Virus record (IMG/VR): IMGVR_UViG_3300042448_001702
Span: 96,008-160,007 of that record
Length of the DNA stretch: 64,000 bases
Direction: 5' to 3' (one strand)
Source: a virus
Each line of letters opens with the position of its first letter. Position 1 is the first letter of the stretch. This document shows, in pieces, positions 11,348 through 60,969 of the stretch. Made by a program: the position numbers and the translations under genes. The notes under the pieces are model-generated. The model ran no database searches. It was not told the DNA's origin and saw nothing but the letters and a program-made list of their open reading frames with translations.

Positions 11348-11378
11348 CAAATATACGAAGATTTCCTGATATAGCAAA
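11348..11378 (-). promoter_or_regulatory. Bacteroidota-type promoter for the VWA gene
   Basis: On the minus strand, TTTG (11375-11378) is followed after 19 nt by TATATTTG (11348-11355). The spacing is one base shorter than in its siblings. It fixes the VWA start at 11317, since the upstream ATG would not be transcribed. Confidence 0.72.
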
Positions 11379-37370: not shown

Positions 37371-38367
37371 CTTTTAATATTTTATAAATTTTTTCCGATG
37401 CTTTCCCATCTCCATATGGACAAGGTTTACAAATATACGGATTTTTTTCTAATTCACAAAATAAATCGGATAGTTTTTCTGGGGTTTCGCAAACAAATAA
37501 ATGCCCAGAACCTTTCCCCTCTGGTCTTTCTGTTACTTTTCTACAAACTATTACTTTTTTGTTAAAGAAAGCCCCTTCCTCTTGCAATCCACCACTATCA
37601 GTTATTACTAACTTAGAATCCTTTAGAATGTTAATAGTTTCATCGTGCGTAAGGGGTTCAACAACATTTATGTTTGTCAATAACCCCTTATGCTTTTGAA
37701 CGTTTGGATTTGGATGCATTGGTAGTATAAATTTATACTGTGGATAATCAATTGCTAACTGATTAATCTGCTTAAACCATTCATCCATCCAATAAAAGTT
37801 TTCTCTACGATGCATTGTTACTAAGATAGTATCACCATAACTACCTTTGTCATACTTTAGGAGATTATCCAATACAGTATTTCCAACTATATGAATATCT
37901 CCTTTTACTCTTTCCGCATCTAAGTTTTCAGCGGAAAGTTGTGTTGGCGCAAAGTTTACATCTGCCAAGCGTGCTATCATTTGTCTGTAACCTTCCTCTG
38001 GATAAGGATTTTCTAAATCGTAACTACGGAGTCCCGCTTCTAAATAGTAAACCTTTATTCCTCTATGAAACGCTGCTAACGCACAGGCAAAAGCGGAGGC
38101 TGTATCACCTTGCACCAACACACCGCTGAACTTGTAATTTGGAAAATATTCCATACAAGCAATCATAATAGAATCTAATCTAGTATGACGAAAACTTTCT
38201 TCTATATTTACTCTAAAATCAACTCTTATATCTGCTAGTAGGTCTTCATGCTGACCTGTGAATAGTAGTTTGTATTCACTTCTATCCATTATATCAATCA
38301 AAGGCTTTACCTTTAACCACTCAGGTCTAGTTCCAAAACATACTAATATTGGGTGTTTCTTATTCAT
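37360..38367 (-). CDS. wecB: UDP-N-acetylglucosamine 2-epimerase
   Basis: A 335-residue protein of the WecB family with LLFTGQHEDL, GVLVQGDTASAFA, YLEAGLRSYDLENPYPEEG, ILVTMHRREN and LVITDSGGLQEEG, covering the UDP-binding and catalytic residues. The enzyme interconverts UDP-GlcNAc and UDP-ManNAc, giving ManNAc-type donors. It overlaps the flanking genes by a few bases on both sides. Confidence 0.93.
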   Translation of the reverse strand: MNKKHPILVCFGTRPEWLKVKPLIDIMDRSEYKLLFTGQHEDLLADIRVDFRVNIEESFRHTRLDSIMIACMEYFPNYKFSGVLVQGDTASAFACALAAFHRGIKVYYLEAGLRSYDLENPYPEEGYRQMIARLADVNFAPTQLSAENLDAERVKGDIHIVGNTVLDNLLKYDKGSYGDTILVTMHRRENFYWMDEWFKQINQLAIDYPQYKFILPMHPNPNVQKHKGLLTNINVVEPLTHDETINILKDSKLVITDSGGLQEEGAFFNKKVIVCRKVTERPEGKGSGHLFVCETPEKLSDLFCELEKNPYICKPCPYGDGKASEKIYKILKDEL

Positions 38368-47638: not shown

Positions 47639-48850
47639 TTATCTTCCTACTTCTCCCAAATATTTTTCTTTCATTTCTTCCCAGCTGATTCCAATCGCAT
47701 CTATGTAGAATAAATGTTCAGGTTTGATTCTGCCTTCATCATGTAGTTTTGTGTATCTACTAATAGCGTGTTTTTTCCACCATTTATTGATGTATTCTGT
47801 ACCTTGCTTAAACTTATCTTTGATGATTAGTTTATCTTCGGTAATTTCGTTACGAAGGAATTCACAACCATTCTCATACATCATAGCCATATACACACCT
47901 CTTTTAAATCCGTGATGATATTCAGTTGCCTTAATACCACATTCTTTAAAGATTTGTCCTAATATCTTTTGTTTGATACCACTAACAGGTCCGTTAGCTT
48001 CATATCCCATGTTAGCACCATTACGAGCTCTCTCATCTGATATATTTTCTTTATACCATTCGGCACGATTTTCTTTTAACCATTGATGCCAAGGGTCATA
48101 ATACTTATCATCCGGCTTAATGCTAATCTTACCAGCCGATTCACCTAAAGTTTTGAAAAGTGGAATACCATTGTATTGAGAATGGATACCATACAAAGAT
48201 GTTGTACCTACTGCTATAAGTACATTCTCATATTTCTTCTTCCAATACTCTCTTACTTCCGGCACCGTAGTCATCATAGCGATTAACTTACCACCTAAGA
48301 AGTTATAACCCAATGGTTGAGTACATACAATTGTAGAAGCAATAGTTGTATTATTTAACTTACCTTTTACAAATTTATCATCTTTAGTCCAACCAATGAA
48401 GTTATCTCTCACACCTAATGCGGTTACATCGGATGCTAAAGAGATTTGACCTAATAACTTTCCGCTTGTTCTATCTTTTACATTAATCTTTACATTTCTG
48501 CCAGGGTTTGCTGTAAAATCCATTGTGTGAATCATTCGTCTTACCGCTGCCCACTTAGTAGATTCTTTGGCATCATCCACAATCTCAACGTAAGGGTCTA
48601 ACGATTCAATTTCTTTTATCGTTAGCTCCTTATTGTTGATGTCAGTTGGTCTCCATTGAAGGTCATAATAAGATGCAATTTGGGATTTAGCCTGAATCAT
48701 TGTAGGGTCTTGCAACTCTACCCACTTTTTGTATAAAGTTTGCTCCTGCACAGACATCGTCATTAGATAGTCCATGTTTTCTTTTAACTTTTGTTTTTCA
48801 ACATCAAAGTCAAAGACAGGTTTTTGTGGTTCGGTATCCCAAAAGCTCAT
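47639..48850 (-). CDS. DruA/DUF4338-like protein
   Basis: A 403-residue protein. Its middle, GKLLGQISLASDVTALGVRD followed by NFIGWT, resembles the DUF4338 domain known from the DruA protein of the Druantia anti-phage system. YNGIPLFKTLGESAGKISI continues the same pattern. The C-terminal 120 residues are basic. DruA's biochemical role is unsettled. In this phage it lies between the clamp and dUTPase genes, so a replication or DNA-protection role is possible. The match was made by eye and is moderate. Confidence 0.55.
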   Translation of the reverse strand: MSFWDTEPQKPVFDFDVEKQKLKENMDYLMTMSVQEQTLYKKWVELQDPTMIQAKSQIASYYDLQWRPTDINNKELTIKEIESLDPYVEIVDDAKESTKWAAVRRMIHTMDFTANPGRNVKINVKDRTSGKLLGQISLASDVTALGVRDNFIGWTKDDKFVKGKLNNTTIASTIVCTQPLGYNFLGGKLIAMMTTVPEVREYWKKKYENVLIAVGTTSLYGIHSQYNGIPLFKTLGESAGKISIKPDDKYYDPWHQWLKENRAEWYKENISDERARNGANMGYEANGPVSGIKQKILGQIFKECGIKATEYHHGFKRGVYMAMMYENGCEFLRNEITEDKLIIKDKFKQGTEYINKWWKKHAISRYTKLHDEGRIKPEHLFYIDAIGISWEEMKEKYLGEVGR

Positions 48851-48852
48851 AA

Positions 48853-49548
48853 TTACTTAATTTCTACGAGGTAATAGTTTGAAGTGTAATCACCATCGGT
48901 AAACGATACGTGTGATAATCCTTTAGATGAAATCTTTAATGAAGATGTCTTAGAACCTTTGTTAGCCATTAAGATAGCTTTCAAATACTTTGCTGAAAAT
49001 GCTATTGGTTCAATATCTTCTTTACATTTACAATCTACAGCGATTGAAATTCGGTTAGAGTTAATTGAAGAATAACCCAATATAACTTCACCACTTCCAC
49101 CTTTACAAGTGAATGTAAATGTATCAGCATCAGCCAATGCACCTTTAGATTTGATGAACTTGTTAATAAAGTCATCATTAAGTGTAATCTCTGCATCAAA
49201 TTCAGGCAAAGCCTTCAAATCGGGTACCGCAGGAATTACTGAAGGTGCTGCTAACATATATTGTACCTTAGTACCTTTATCAGCGAACTTAACTGCTCCA
49301 GTTGTTTCTTCTACAGTGATTGCCTCATCCAATACACTCAACAATCCTTTTAATTGTGATGTAGTGTAGATGCCAAATTCACCTTTTGGAAAATCCTTTT
49401 CAGCTACAGTAACATCACCCAATAGAGTTTTGTCATCTGAAATCATTCTTACTGAAAGATTCTTACCATCGGCTTTTACCATAACGGATTCAATCTCACC
49501 ACCAAGGTTGTAACGATTGATAAAACCATCAAATTTACTTTTGTTCAT
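48853..49548 (-). CDS. 45: Sliding clamp (gp45/PCNA-like)
   Basis: A 231-residue protein, the length of T4 gp45 (228). It has alternating strands and helices with a two-lobed pattern, for example VMVKADGKNLSVRMISDDKT and SSINSNRISIAVDCKCKEDI, and ends in the C-terminal strand YTSNYYLVEIK. It lies between DNA polymerase and the clamp-loader genes, as in T4. It encircles DNA and gives the polymerase processivity. The context is strong; sequence similarity is modest. Confidence 0.82.
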   Translation of the reverse strand: MNKSKFDGFINRYNLGGEIESVMVKADGKNLSVRMISDDKTLLGDVTVAEKDFPKGEFGIYTTSQLKGLLSVLDEAITVEETTGAVKFADKGTKVQYMLAAPSVIPAVPDLKALPEFDAEITLNDDFINKFIKSKGALADADTFTFTCKGGSGEVILGYSSINSNRISIAVDCKCKEDIEPIAFSAKYLKAILMANKGSKTSSLKISSKGLSHVSFTDGDYTSNYYLVEIK

Positions 49549-49581: not shown

Positions 49582-49613
49582 CAAATATACGAAAAATTAT
49601 TCAATCTACCAAA
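49582..49613 (-). promoter_or_regulatory. Bacteroidota-type promoter for the clamp operon
   Basis: On the minus strand, TTTGG (49609-49613) is followed after 19 nt by TATATTTG (49582-49589), directly after the polymerase stop codon. It drives the clamp, DruA-like, dUTPase and clamp-loader genes. Confidence 0.72.
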
Positions 49614-52130: not shown

Positions 52131-53246
52131 CTATTCTTTTAATTTTTTATGTAATTCAATAAGCATCTTTCCTTCATTTTCTGAAAGTTCTAATGCTCTT
52201 TCAATACTTTTTTGTTCTCTTTCTTTTCTATAAGTATCGTCATCCAATATCTTGTCTAATAGTTCAAATAGGTCTTTTTTAAATTTAAAGAACAATCCGT
52301 TTGGTTCTATTTCCTGATAACATAGTGATTCTTGATATATCATTGGTGTACCATTCATCAAGCAATCCGTTGCCGATACACTCCAACCATAATTTGTTTG
52401 CCTCATTTGAATACCAACTTTACATTGTTGTAATCTACCATAATATTCATGCTTTGGAAGTTTAGTAGCATCAATCCAATTATGTTCCGGTGTTCCTTTT
52501 AATTGAGGCACCCATACACTAAAATCTTGTCTACGTTCCCTATATTCTTCCATCAATTTAATGAAAGCGGGATAACCTTTATAAGCTGCTGCTCTATGAT
52601 TGAATACTATAATATTTCGTTTTTCTTCCGATGCTGATTCTATTACATTTTGTTTTGGTAAACCTAAGTTCCATACCACTAAAATATCATCTAGCTTTTT
52701 AACAAACTCATCATTGAACCAAATCTTAGCTTCTTCTAATACTCTATTCTTTTGGTCTTGTGTATTAAGGTAGCAAGTTTCCATTTGAGATATACCTAAT
52801 AATTCAATTGGCATCCATCTCCATTTATTTTTTCTATCTTCCGCATTGCAGGATTTCATTTCCCACCAATGGCAATATCCAATTATTTTAGTATCAAATG
52901 AATTCTTATATCTTCCAACTTGAGGCCAATCAGGCAAATGTGAATAGATAACATCATACTCTAATGTTTCTAACAGCTTATTGAAATCCGGCGGATAGGT
53001 ACGCATTTTAATCATATCACCAGAGAAGGGTAAGATATGCTGCTTTACATTTAGTAAATTCAATTTCTTAACCGGCTCGGGTAGTATAATATTCCAAAAG
53101 TATTCTCCGTGTTGCTCTAAACCTTTTATATGGTTATAGATAACATCAACGAATGAATCCTTTTCTATATTAGCGGAATTGGTGATATTAGGTATCACCA
53201 AAACACGCCTTGCTTCTTTACTTAATTGCCCTTCCCAAAAATTCAT
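52131..53246 (-). CDS. GT-B glycosyltransferase next to the DNA polymerase
   Basis: A 371-residue protein with a GT-B layout. The N-terminal domain has VLVIPNITNSANIE. The C-terminal donor domain has YGRLQQCKVGIQMRQTNYGW and SVSATDCLMNGTPMIYQ, with the pattern of nucleotide-sugar binding. It is outside the glycan island, one base from the polymerase gene and one base from the GIY-YIG/ParB-like gene. This setting is typical of phage DNA base-glucosylating enzymes, but acceptor specificity is unproven. Confidence 0.72.
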   Translation of the reverse strand: MNFWEGQLSKEARRVLVIPNITNSANIEKDSFVDVIYNHIKGLEQHGEYFWNIILPEPVKKLNLLNVKQHILPFSGDMIKMRTYPPDFNKLLETLEYDVIYSHLPDWPQVGRYKNSFDTKIIGYCHWWEMKSCNAEDRKNKWRWMPIELLGISQMETCYLNTQDQKNRVLEEAKIWFNDEFVKKLDDILVVWNLGLPKQNVIESASEEKRNIIVFNHRAAAYKGYPAFIKLMEEYRERRQDFSVWVPQLKGTPEHNWIDATKLPKHEYYGRLQQCKVGIQMRQTNYGWSVSATDCLMNGTPMIYQESLCYQEIEPNGLFFKFKKDLFELLDKILDDDTYRKEREQKSIERALELSENEGKMLIELHKKLKE

Positions 53247-54523
53247 TAATCTAATTGATTTGTAATTGTTGTTTGCATTTCAATAATTTGAAATGTATAT
53301 TTAAGTGGATGTAAGAAATATTTTAATTTTGCAATTGCATCCGGTTGATAATCTTGCTTCCACTTATCTTCAGCAGCTGGTCCGTTGTGATGAACCAATA
53401 TAACCAACTTTGATTTTGTCTTTTCTCTACTTTTTGTTTTCTTATCAATTTCAGTTTCACTAAATATATGATTAAAAATATTATCCCACTTAAACATTGC
53501 TGATGATAAAGCTATACACATTGTATCTTTATCTTTAGTACTATCTTTTTTTGCTTCCAAAGCTTTCTTACCAGACCCAGTTGTATAATCAATCCACAAT
53601 TGATTGGCCTTCTTTAAATCATCTTTATCTATTTCTTTCTGAGCTTCTAAAAGAATTGATTTTATTTGTTTATTTGTAAACTTCATTTCTTTAAGAAACT
53701 CTTTGTTAGATGAATCATTTACTGGTACTCCTTTTAAGTGTTGAGTTTGGATATATTTTATCATATCCAACTTACTAGCACGTTGCTTTACTACATCAGA
53801 AGGTCTATTTAAAAGATTACCAACTGCTATTAATTCCTCATTTGTATATTCATTATGTACATCTTCAGGAATTACAGCAACAATAACATCTCTACCATGC
53901 TTTGATTTAAGAATACCAGCAACTGTATGGTTTCCATCAATAATAACATTATTACCAGCTTGTCTAGCTTTAGCTACAACCACTGGGTTACATTTATCAG
54001 TATTTCCACCCGCATCATCAATCTTTTCTGAAATTTCTCTTACATGCTCAGGATTTTCTAAAAACCTTACCTGTAACTTAAAGTACTTACTTACTTCTTC
54101 TATTGATTCTTTTGTATCCAATGTAAATTCGCCATTTTCAATTCTTGCAACTAACTCCTTAACTTTATCCACATCAATTGGTTTATACTTTGGAGCTCCA
54201 TTTGTTAAATTGAAATACATAGGATTGTTTTTAGCATCAGCTTCAGAAAGTATTTTGTGTTCCGACACAGTCATTTGATTATAATCACCATATTCTAAAA
54301 TTTCAAATTTAAGATTAGAATCGGTATTAGATAATAGTTTATTAAACTCTTTATTTTGTGATGAATGCCAATAACCATCACCAACATATCCTTTATGGAC
54401 ACCAACATATACTCTATTGGTATCCATATCGGTAAAACGATATAAATATCCCTCATATGTAGTGGGCATATTTCCTAACTGAACATCTTTAACTGATTCC
54501 GGTTTATTTGCAAATAAATTCAT
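53246..54523 (-). CDS. GIY-YIG-like / ParB-like fusion protein
   Basis: A 425-residue two-part protein. The N-terminal 100 residues fit a GIY-YIG nuclease: YLY (26-28), YVG (39-41), the conserved DGYWHSS turn, a Glu in VSEHKILS and the Asn in YFNLTNG. Residues about 160-225 are ParB/Srx-like with NPVVVAKARQAG and IDGNHTVAGIL, where DGNHT stands where ParB has a DGHHR-type motif. The C-terminal part is Lys/Asp-rich. The first gene after the promoter at 54560, it is co-transcribed with a glycosyltransferase and the DNA polymerase. Confidence 0.72.
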   Translation of the reverse strand: MNLFANKPESVKDVQLGNMPTTYEGYLYRFTDMDTNRVYVGVHKGYVGDGYWHSSQNKEFNKLLSNTDSNLKFEILEYGDYNQMTVSEHKILSEADAKNNPMYFNLTNGAPKYKPIDVDKVKELVARIENGEFTLDTKESIEEVSKYFKLQVRFLENPEHVREISEKIDDAGGNTDKCNPVVVAKARQAGNNVIIDGNHTVAGILKSKHGRDVIVAVIPEDVHNEYTNEELIAVGNLLNRPSDVVKQRASKLDMIKYIQTQHLKGVPVNDSSNKEFLKEMKFTNKQIKSILLEAQKEIDKDDLKKANQLWIDYTTGSGKKALEAKKDSTKDKDTMCIALSSAMFKWDNIFNHIFSETEIDKKTKSREKTKSKLVILVHHNGPAAEDKWKQDYQPDAIAKLKYFLHPLKYTFQIIEMQTTITNQLD

Positions 54524-54559: not shown

Positions 54560-54591
54560 TAAAGATACGAAAAATCCCCCAATTTGCCAAA
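54560..54591 (-). promoter_or_regulatory. Bacteroidota-type promoter for the GIY-YIG/ParB operon
   Basis: On the minus strand, TTTGG (54587-54591) is followed after 19 nt by TATCTTTA (54560-54567). The -33 box lies in the loop of the hairpin at 54576-54602, again combining terminator and promoter. Confidence 0.7.
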
Positions 54592-54602
54592 TAAATTAGG
54601 GG
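54576..54602 (-). terminator. Terminator-like hairpin before the GIY-YIG/ParB operon
   Basis: The minus strand reads CCCCTAATTT-ATTTGGC-AAATTGGGGG followed by ATTTTTCG: a 10-bp stem with one G-T pair. It lies downstream of the Mom-like gene's stop and overlaps the following promoter. Confidence 0.65.
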
Positions 54603-54616
54603 ATAATTTATAATCA

Positions 54617-54639: not shown

Positions 54640-55440
54640 TTACCAATAGTTTTCAGCCCCTTCAGGTGCTACATAATTCGTTTCATGTCTTACCACTTCG
54701 GTGTTAAAATCGGTAGCACTTTTTGGATATGATTTGATGGGATGTTTGAGTGCCTTCATCATAGCCTTTCTTTCTTTCTTATCTTGTGGAAGTAATTGTA
54801 CATATCGGTGCTTTGGTGGCTCCATTCTTCTCCAAAAGTATTGATAACCTTCTTTACCAATTTCATTTTTTAAATGCTCTAAGTTACCACTACCCCATTT
54901 ACTGAATACAGTTCTACTATGAATCCATTTGTAAGGATTTTCTTGCAAAGATATACCCCAATTTGGCATTAATGCAATATCAGATGAAATACCCTGATAT
55001 ATCCAATTGGTAGCTTGATAAATTGCTCCTAAGTGTTGTTGTCCTGCATCAGCATAAGATAGTAACAACTTAATATTTTTATCATTTTCTTTAATCCACT
55101 TAAACGATTGTGATATTGCATATGATTCAATATTAGAACCATAACCATCATCACAATACAAACGGGTCAATTCTAAAATGTTATCTTTAGTCAATCCTTC
55201 ACAAACAGATGTTGCTGCTTTTGCTCCAACAGGGAATCCGTAAATAATACAACCTATAAGTTTATCACCATCAAAGGTCATAGCATCTTCTGATTTATAA
55301 TAGATACCTAATGCATAACGGCAAGATGTCCAAGCGTGAGTATAGTGTCTCTGAACAATAATATCTTTTGCGATATTTTTAGCTATTGGTGCGATGTACA
55401 CTTTACTTACATCACAATATTGTTTACCTTCTACTTTCAT
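54640..55440 (-). CDS. Mom-like putative DNA-modification enzyme (copy A)
   Basis: A 266-residue protein with the pattern of the Mom family of Mu-type adenine-modification proteins: LIGCIIYGFPVG, ILELTRLYCDDGYGSNIESY and then LLSYADAGQQHLGAIYQATN followed by WIYQG. Mom proteins have a GNAT-like fold and change adenine in phage DNA to protect it from host nucleases. The start overlaps the 54-aa gene's stop as TAATG. It shares its first residues MKVEGKQYCD with copy B and is clearly a duplicate. Activity on DNA is inferred. Confidence 0.8.
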   Translation of the reverse strand: MKVEGKQYCDVSKVYIAPIAKNIAKDIIVQRHYTHAWTSCRYALGIYYKSEDAMTFDGDKLIGCIIYGFPVGAKAATSVCEGLTKDNILELTRLYCDDGYGSNIESYAISQSFKWIKENDKNIKLLLSYADAGQQHLGAIYQATNWIYQGISSDIALMPNWGISLQENPYKWIHSRTVFSKWGSGNLEHLKNEIGKEGYQYFWRRMEPPKHRYVQLLPQDKKERKAMMKALKHPIKSYPKSATDFNTEVVRHETNYVAPEGAENYW

Positions 55441-55604
55441 TACCAGAATTTCTTTTTATCTTTTTTAGGTGGATTGGTTTCCAATTCCTTTTTTAATTTC
55501 TTTTTTTCAGCCGGCGTTAGGTTTGTCATCTTCTGCCATTCTTCCAACTTTTCCCAACTATCAATTATATAATAACCTTCCTTATCCTTTGTTAGCTTTG
55601 CCAT
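55440..55604 (-). CDS. Small lysine-rich protein (54 aa)
   Basis: An intact frame encoding MAKLTKDKEGYYIIDSWEKL, EEWQKMTNLTP and a highly basic end. Its stop overlaps the Mom-like start as TAATG, and its own start overlaps the upstream 82-aa gene. It may be a partner of the Mom-like enzyme or an unrelated small protein. Not recognised. Confidence 0.6.
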   Translation of the reverse strand: MAKLTKDKEGYYIIDSWEKLEEWQKMTNLTPAEKKKLKKELETNPPKKDKKKFW

Positions 55605-55830
55605 TTGCTAATGCTTTTTCCAATGTTGATTGTTTCTTTTCCAACTTTGCCAACTTTGCTCTTTGCTTCATTTGTTTATCATAGCCGGCTGGATATTTGT
55701 TTGTTACTTCAATAGGTCCATTTGGAAATTTCTTTAAATCATATTTCCAAACTGATTCAACCCCATCATCATCTTTATATACGTGTTCAAACTTTGTGGG
55801 TTTTTCTATTGGTCCTTTAGATACTGCCAT
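55582..55830 (-). CDS. Small basic hypothetical protein (82 aa)
   Basis: A protein with FEHVYKDDDGVESVWKYDLK and a basic, helical C-terminal tail (QRAKLAKLEKKQSTLEKA). It is the first gene after the promoter at 55845-55876 and overlaps the 54-aa gene. No family recognised. Confidence 0.55.
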   Translation of the reverse strand: MAVSKGPIEKPTKFEHVYKDDDGVESVWKYDLKKFPNGPIEVTNKYPAGYDKQMKQRAKLAKLEKKQSTLEKALANGKANKG

Positions 55831-55844
55831 ATCATAAATTTATA

Positions 55845-55876
55845 CAAATATACGAAATTATTCTGAAACTACCAAA
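55845..55876 (-). promoter_or_regulatory. Bacteroidota-type promoter for the Mom-like A operon
   Basis: On the minus strand, TTTGG (55872-55876) is followed after 19 nt by TATATTTG (55845-55852). It overlaps the C-terminal coding end of Mom-like copy B. It drives the 82-aa, 54-aa and Mom-like A genes. Confidence 0.7.
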
Positions 55877-56631
55877 TCTATCGGGTCCATTCTATGAACT
55901 TCATCAATAATATCCAACTCTACCTTTGGATACGGAAAGACCTCATGTTTAAGTGATTTTAAGAGGGCTTTACGCTCCTTCTTATCTTTGGTTAGAATAT
56001 ACACATATCGGTGCTTACGGGGTTCTCTTTTAATCCAGAATGGGCTTGTAACCATTGTCTGAATTATCTTCGGGTCATTCGTTCCGTACTTCACATAAGA
56101 TGTCCGAGAATGATGCCATTCATCATCTTCACTCCATTTGAAACTCCAACTATCTGACCATCTGATTTTATTACCCTGATATATCCAATTGGTAGCTTGA
56201 TATACCGTTCCTAAGTGCCCAGCATTTGGGTCTGAATAAGATATAAGTGCTTTGATACGAGGTACATTAGTTCTTAACCATTCGAAAGTTTGTCCAACGA
56301 ACCAACTTTCAATGTTACTACCATACCCATCGAATACGAATAGTCTTGTCAATTCTAATACACCATCTCTAGGAAGTAATTCGGAAATTGATGCTCCGGC
56401 GTTTCTACCAACCGGGTCACCATAACAGGCAACTCCAACTAATTGTTCGTTTACACCACTAAAAAAATTATGTTCATCTTCGGATATATAAAACAAGCCA
56501 ATAGCATAGGATACCTTTGTCCATATACCACTGTAATGGTTATTGACAATAATATCCTTTGCAATATTCTTATTGATTTCTCTTATTGAGAATTTGGATA
56601 TGTCACAATATTGTTTTCCTTCTACTTTCAT
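55858..56631 (-). CDS. Mom-like putative DNA-modification enzyme (copy B)
   Basis: A 257-residue paralogue of the neighbouring gene: LVGVACYGDPVG, VLELTRLFVFDGYGSNIESW and LISYSDPNAGHLGTVYQATN followed by WIYQG. Both start MKVEGKQYCD, but beyond the motifs they differ widely, so the duplication is old. Its ATG overlaps the stop of a small HTH gene, and it is the last gene of the RNR operon. Two Mom-like enzymes may use different adenine contexts or form a heteromer; that is inference. Confidence 0.8.
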   Translation of the reverse strand: MKVEGKQYCDISKFSIREINKNIAKDIIVNNHYSGIWTKVSYAIGLFYISEDEHNFFSGVNEQLVGVACYGDPVGRNAGASISELLPRDGVLELTRLFVFDGYGSNIESWFVGQTFEWLRTNVPRIKALISYSDPNAGHLGTVYQATNWIYQGNKIRWSDSWSFKWSEDDEWHHSRTSYVKYGTNDPKIIQTMVTSPFWIKREPRKHRYVYILTKDKKERKALLKSLKHEVFPYPKVELDIIDEVHRMDPIDLVVSE

Positions 56632-56831
56632 ATACTACCAGACCAAAATTCATTTAGATGATTCCAAGTTTTACGTTGGATAATCTTCATTACATTGGCT
56701 GGGGAAACTTTATTGTTTCTTGCAATCACCTTTACGTTTCGGTGACCCATATTCCATAATCTTCTGATGTTTAGAACTTGCTCATCTGTCAGTTTAGCGG
56801 CAGGATGAGTTTGCCCTCTTAAAATAGCCAT
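56628..56831 (-). CDS. Small HTH protein (67 aa)
   Basis: A compact helix-turn-helix protein: KLTDEQVLNIRRLWNMGH, then VKVIARNNKVSPANVMKII and RKTWNHL. The pattern resembles the DNA-binding repeat at the C-terminus of HNH-type homing endonucleases. No nuclease domain is attached. It couples to Mom-like copy B by an ATGA overlap and may bind DNA to guide or regulate that gene. Confidence 0.68.
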   Translation of the reverse strand: MAILRGQTHPAAKLTDEQVLNIRRLWNMGHRNVKVIARNNKVSPANVMKIIQRKTWNHLNEFWSGSI

Positions 56832-56851: not shown

Positions 56852-57118
56852 TTATCCTATTGCTTCATTGATAGCGTTTTTATAAGCTACCTTTGAAGTT
56901 AATCCTTGAAATCTTTCAACAACAACACCATCCTTTTCAACAATAACTAATGGAATTGAAGTTACATTATATTGTTGTGCTTCATTTGGAGAATTATCTA
57001 CGTCATATTCAATGAAAGTTGCCTTACCATTAAATTCTTCTTTTAATTGTTCCAAAACAGGTTTTAGCATTCTGCATGGTCCACACCATTCTGCTCCAAA
57101 TTTTTTAATCGTTACCAT
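56852..57118 (-). CDS. Thioredoxin
   Basis: An 88-residue thioredoxin-fold protein with the active site WCGPC at 11-15 and the cis-proline region TSIPLVIVEKDG. It is shorter than the usual 105-110 residues but keeps the core fold. It lies two genes from ribonucleotide reductase, which needs a dithiol donor, so it probably reduces the C-terminal RNR cysteines. It overlaps the DUF5522 gene by 14 nt. Confidence 0.92.
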   Translation of the reverse strand: MVTIKKFGAEWCGPCRMLKPVLEQLKEEFNGKATFIEYDVDNSPNEAQQYNVTSIPLVIVEKDGVVVERFQGLTSKVAYKNAINEAIG

Positions 57119-60937: not shown

Positions 60938-60969
60938 CAAATATACAACAATTTAGTGGTTTCACCAAA
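60938..60969 (-). promoter_or_regulatory. Bacteroidota-type promoter for the helicase gene
   Basis: On the minus strand, TTTGG (60965-60969) is followed after 19 nt by TATATTTG (60938-60945). It directly follows the flap-nuclease stop codon and drives helicase and the histone-like gene. Confidence 0.72.

Follow-up and report, generated by a model that had tools for sequence, protein, structure and literature searches.

Two Mom-family DNA-modification genes form a conserved tandem pair in a lineage of uncultured T4-like phages

The phage described here encodes two members of the Mom family of DNA-modification enzymes, MomA and MomB, and genome comparisons indicate that this pair is a trait of its lineage, a large family of uncultured phages in which both genes are retained throughout. 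The reading that we favour, somewhat more than all others together, is that the two are competent enzymes derived from an old duplication within the lineage, that both modify phage adenines and that both are kept because they differ in the sequence context of their sites and, in this sublineage, also in timing. Phage Mu uses Mom to chemically disguise its DNA from bacterial restriction enzymes, the group in Mu being carbamoylmethyl; few bulky modifications of adenine are known besides the Mom product, and the site choice of Mom is poorly understood. The enzyme family and its suggested function are already known; new, as far as our literature search shows, are the conserved tandem A-B pair, the predicted separate promoter of one sublineage and the recurrent repertoires of two or three Moms in uncultured phages.

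The window, by which we mean the whole 64-kb stretch of DNA that was analysed, is the last part of a 160,007-bp virus record. It encodes a T4-like replication set (PolB, UvsX, a gp41-like helicase, gp32 and a clamp-loader subunit) and ribonucleotide reductase, with nearly all genes on the minus strand, and momA and momB are located between the ribonucleotide reductase and polymerase genes (Table 1). The record-wide search found no Mom genes besides these two. The lineage is T4-like and probably infects Bacteroidota, a host suggested by the type of promoter motif described below; the closest isolate polymerase belongs to a Microcystis phage, though the promoter motifs point to a Bacteroidota host. 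Elsewhere in the window, a 403-aa protein (47639-48850, minus strand) matches DruA of the Druantia defence system (PF14236, E 3.8e-18; PADLOC, E 2.3e-17), its gene adjoining a dUTPase gene near the polymerase gene. The polymerase gene matches of two relatives are interrupted by insertions that resemble inteins or homing elements (L124, 7021-11029; L126, 8602-12158).

Table 1. Features of the mom locus in the window and comparable features in other records
Feature	Record	Position	Strand	Evidence or remark
MomA, 257 aa, upstream copy, Mom-family GNAT-fold DNA-modification enzyme	window	55858..56631	-	PF25680, phrog_1384, AlphaFold/8bv8, dN/dS 0.11
MomB, 266 aa, downstream copy, Mom-family GNAT-fold DNA-modification enzyme	window	54640..55440	-	PF25680, AlphaFold/8bv8, dN/dS 0.13
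Predicted Bacteroidota-type promoter motif, between momA and orf82	window	55845..55876	-	motif search, conservation
Terminator-like hairpin with T run, downstream of momB	window	54574..54604	-	sequence
HTH protein, 67 aa, basic, pI 11.7	window	56628..56831	-	phrog_20467, E 1e-6; stop overlaps momA ATG
orf82, 82-aa basic protein ahead of momB	window	55582..55830	-	homologues ahead of momB in close relatives only
orf54, 54-aa lysine-rich protein	window	55440..55604	-	stop overlaps momB ATG; in a subset of close relatives
Thioredoxin-like protein, backbone gene upstream of HTH-momA	window	56852..57118	-	syntenic in 58/66 distinct A-B pairs
GIY-YIG/ParB-like protein downstream of momB	window	53246..54523	-	weak phrog_7504 and phrog_1033 matches
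Cargo at the momA-momB junction in close relatives	L024; L026; L088; L129	6791-7315; 4100-5600; 4675-5556; 4901-5686		
Thioredoxin/glutaredoxin beside Mom (also window 56852-57118)	L316; L315	2480-3304; 2450-3791		

Both open reading frames proposed in the initial annotation are present, and they share the N-terminus MKVEGKQYCD and the paired motifs that had drawn attention to them (LTRLFVFDGYGSNIES and SYSDPNAGHLGTVYQATNWIYQG in MomA, LTRLYCDDGYGSNIES and SYADAGQQHLGAIYQATNWIYQG in MomB). An identity of 48% across 256 aa (E 3e-82) shows that the two proteins are homologous and not alike by chance. The PF25680 (Mom) profile matched MomA with E 1.5e-43 and MomB with E 1e-44 (149 and 153 bits, the curated cut-off being 27.1; profile positions 2-202 of 202 covered), and both copies matched PHROG 1384, 'Mom-like DNA modification protein' (MomA, E 1.2e-47). 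When the PDB was searched by sequence, the sole strong match was Mu Mom (E 6e-11 for MomA and 1.2e-6 for MomB). AlphaFold models of the two proteins (pLDDT 91.1 for MomA and 90.9 for MomB) had as their best Foldseek matches in the PDB the Mu Mom structure 8bv8, with E 5.9e-13 and 1.3e-12 for its chains in the case of MomA and E 1.1e-15 in that of MomB; GNATs came next for both models at E about 1e-4. Thus, the full-length profile matches and the top rank of 8bv8 establish the membership that had been suggested from motifs, and place both proteins in Mom and not in an unrelated acetyltransferase family. Mu Mom (NC_000929 Mup55) shares the Pfam family and fold with MomA and MomB at about 20-23% identity in structural alignments. 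An assembly artefact as the source of the pair is ruled out, since many independent metagenomes carry it.

The residues that define the family are retained in both copies. PDB entry 8bv8 is titled 'inactive mutant S124A', and S124 of Mu Mom aligns with S109 of MomA and S106 of MomB. In an alignment of 56 diverse Moms this serine is invariant together with H32, Y33, E93, R96, S131, H139, Y144 and N148 (MomA numbering), which include the HY pair, the E and R of ELxR, the serine of SY[SA]D and the Y and N of YQATN; 12 alignment columns are invariant among the 56 sequences, and MomA and MomB retain all of them. Similarly, the Mu residues HY, E.R, S124, D149 and Y159 (241-aa numbering) are aligned and conserved in the two proteins. 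Judged by these residues, both copies look functional and catalytically competent.

Among IMG/VR relatives, A lies upstream of B on the same strand in all 71 distinct pairs, and in 31 of these, from distant relatives, the two ORFs overlap. Two Moms were found in 22 of the 25 records that were searched whole, three in one (L126) and one in two, of which one is cut at a contig end and the other is B-only; these counts are lower bounds, because the records may be fragments, and the samples of relatives were drawn by similarity, not at random. Where A lacks a B, the contig always stops within about 1.3 kb, whereas B occurs alone in some phages, including the large records L194 (238 kb) and L213 (175 kb). 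Further sets consist of three Moms in tandem (L126 and L158), A, B and C (L176), B and C, or a B-like Mom with C and a third. Among long records encoding a C-type Mom, 18 of 22 have at least two Moms over the cut-off and 9 have three, and a sample centred on the Mom of a Polaribacter phage contained at least two in 7 of 34. The recurrence of such sets argues for selection for a repertoire. In addition, the momA-momB junction takes cargo in relatives, namely a DNA methylase, a RimK-like ATP-grasp protein, a NUMOD3 protein and a 175-aa protein of unknown family.

The asymmetry between A, never without B except near a contig end, and B, which can stand alone, would be expected if the two formed a heteromeric enzyme in which A needs B, for example for DNA binding or activity, and the fixed order and overlapping ORFs suggest translational coupling. 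We nevertheless consider such an enzyme unlikely. All family-invariant residues are kept in both copies, one Mom is enough for activity in Mu, isolates as a rule have just one, and a sister-type A (L182) is alone on a 28-kb fragment. Moreover, distance correlations set against DnaB and PolB revealed no A-B co-evolution beyond the genome background, the A-B value (rho 0.57) being no better than those of A-DnaB (0.87) and A-PolB (0.71), and close relatives share 98% in A with 79% in B, which implies that A and B recombine independently.

The view that most Mom phages carry a single copy is supported for isolates, but it does not extend to the environmental lineage, where two or three Moms are usual. 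Searches of 50,697 GenBank phages by tblastn matched 313 records with MomA and 260 with MomB as query, at one place each, and a C-type query matched 324 places in 323 records. The PF25680 profile had exactly one match over the cut-off in 14 of 17 reference genomes; of the remaining three, RaK2 has one and one borderline match, PA5oct one below the cut-off and Mel-JY01 none. According to a 2021 review, PA5oct has five 'momylating enzymes', and the Moms of jumbo phages are as a rule joined to a nuclease domain in one protein (PMC7824862), so phages with several Moms are not wholly unknown; this remark was all that a literature search for tandem or paired Mom genes returned. PA5oct is thus alike in that more than one Mom-type enzyme is reported in one phage, and it differs in that its one PF25680 match is sub-threshold, its Mom-type proteins being, by this profile, far more divergent. 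Polaribacter phage P12002L, also a phage of Bacteroidota, has the isolate Mom closest to this pair (44% to A, 40% to B); this is a single Mom, its gene adjoins a DNA methylase, and it mixes A-type and B-type residues at the fixed sites described below.

Our data bear out the earlier proposal that the paralogues are old. The same codon is used at 70 of the 125 residues identical between MomA and MomB, the chance expectation being 66; synonymous sites are therefore saturated, and the duplication is old. In a tree of 50 sequences A and B form separate clades (UFboot/SH-aLRT 94/99 and 98/93, from one alignment and with a midpoint root), and the duplication appears to be older than the diversification of the lineage. 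Both proteins are under purifying selection, the dN/dS values in Table 1 being medians within the orthologue groups. A 30-bp stretch, TATCAAGCTACCAATTGGATATATCAGGGT, is identical in the two copies (P = 0.008 by codon resampling) and raised the possibility of gene conversion; because in other genomes this motif shows 0-6 base differences, and overall synonymous identity matches the chance level, gene conversion was rejected and the stretch taken as coincidence.

Expression of the two genes may be separately controlled. The motif TTTG-N20-TATATTTG begins within the last momA codons, and 14 bases separate its end from orf82; in flavobacteria the -7 element has the consensus TAnnTTTG (PMC9723704). 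The TTTG-N20-TATATTTG motif is found 14 times in the window versus 4.3 +/- 1.9 in shuffles; one copy, at 60938-60969, directly precedes the helicase gene, and another directly precedes the gene at 48853-49548. Of 29 distinct A-B gaps in relatives, 28 contain it; the one that lacks it belongs to L158, where a third Mom sits in the gap. More generally, TTTG-N17-21-TAnnTTTG motifs are enriched, mostly on the coding strand (for example 60938-60969, 49582-49613, 37430-37460 and 11348-11378). The T4-type late promoter TATAAATA is depleted and was discarded as a candidate. With this motif after the momA stop and a hairpin after momB, the separate promoters and different operons of the initial annotation hold as a motif-level prediction, and MomB probably has its own promoter in this sublineage; a single operon, suggested by the short gap, was dropped given the conserved motif. 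Since A and B overlap in so many pairs of deeper relatives, the promoter separation looks derived.

The neighbouring genes were only in part as first described, when small basic and HTH genes were said to adjoin both copies: the HTH gene adjoins momA only, and the basic ORFs lie between the Moms, ahead of momB. As suggested partners, the HTH gene is conserved, lying no more than 500 bp upstream in 62 of 66 distinct A-B pairs, whereas orf82 is confined to close relatives and matched no family in Pfam or PHROG. In Mu, which has one Mom where this phage has two, the small upstream ORF that overlaps mom is com, and here the HTH ORF overlaps momA; however, Com is a zinc-finger regulator with CxxC motifs, and a zinc-finger Com was not found at this position, the overlapping gene encoding a cysteine-free HTH protein that is not Com despite its com-like position. 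The GIY-YIG/ParB-like gene was considered as a partner and rejected, being present at 10 of 82 loci; other cargo varies between relatives, and a conserved nuclease beside mom, as in a restriction-modification pair, was not found at these loci. The Mom gene of Synechococcus phage DSL-LC03 (L325, 2424-3594) overlaps a gene annotated as a type II restriction endonuclease, and the two may form a restriction-modification pair carried by the phage. Thioredoxin or glutaredoxin genes are also found beside Moms in the unrelated phages Enterococcus EFA1 (immediately downstream) and S-SSM7 (two genes downstream), and may represent a redox partner or simply the clustering of nucleotide-metabolism genes.

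The differences between A and B are fixed at 26 positions (80 A versus 89 B sequences), and many of these flank the HY, ELTRL, SY[SA]D and C-terminal KHRY motifs. Given these positions, the specialisation proposed at the outset is plausible, and because many lie beside catalytic motifs and in the C-terminal part, a different site preference is our best guess. If both copies had the same specificity and were retained for reasons of dosage or to permit expression at two infection stages, this would agree with the conserved separate promoter of momB in close relatives and with the invariant residues common to the two; yet 48% identity, 26 fixed differences and saturation far exceed what dosage needs, and the pair is older than the separate promoter, as the overlapping ORFs of deep relatives indicate, so that dosage or timing alone is less likely and we hold it to be improbable. 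Least probable of all is that one copy has another substrate or acyl donor (RNA, host DNA or another group on adenine), for while fixed differences adjoin conserved motifs, including HY[S/T] and SY[S/A]D, the invariant residues are all kept in both and nothing indicates a specific alternative.

We thus return to two competent Moms with differing site contexts, a reading built on what is observed: family, fold, a conserved essential residue, age, purifying selection, conserved pairing and a promoter motif. From there we infer what the modification is, where it falls and how the two copies divide the work. After an old duplication within this phage lineage, each Mom would attach a Mom-type group to adenine N6 in the DNA of the phage itself and thereby block host restriction endonucleases, and both copies would be retained because they modify different adenines according to sequence context. 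Against a need for two enzymes, B alone suffices in the large records L194 and L213. In this sublineage the copies may also differ in time of production, MomA being expressed by read-through of the replication operon, together with the adjoining HTH gene, while a Bacteroidota-type promoter of its own would drive momB; this timing is motif-based and would not apply to relatives with overlapping A and B ORFs.

More speculatively, and with distinctly less confidence, environmental T4-like phages might carry sets of two or three Moms (A, B, C and others) with distinct targets or products, or as heteromers, that write a multi-letter pattern of bulky adenines tuned to the restriction repertoire of the host. 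Co-resident paralogues with few fixed differences and 80-89 orthologues each provide a comparative set for locating the determinants of Mom specificity. If the copies do differ in specificity, these phages would stack Moms and so evade several restriction systems at the same time, in the way that other phages combine methyltransferases.
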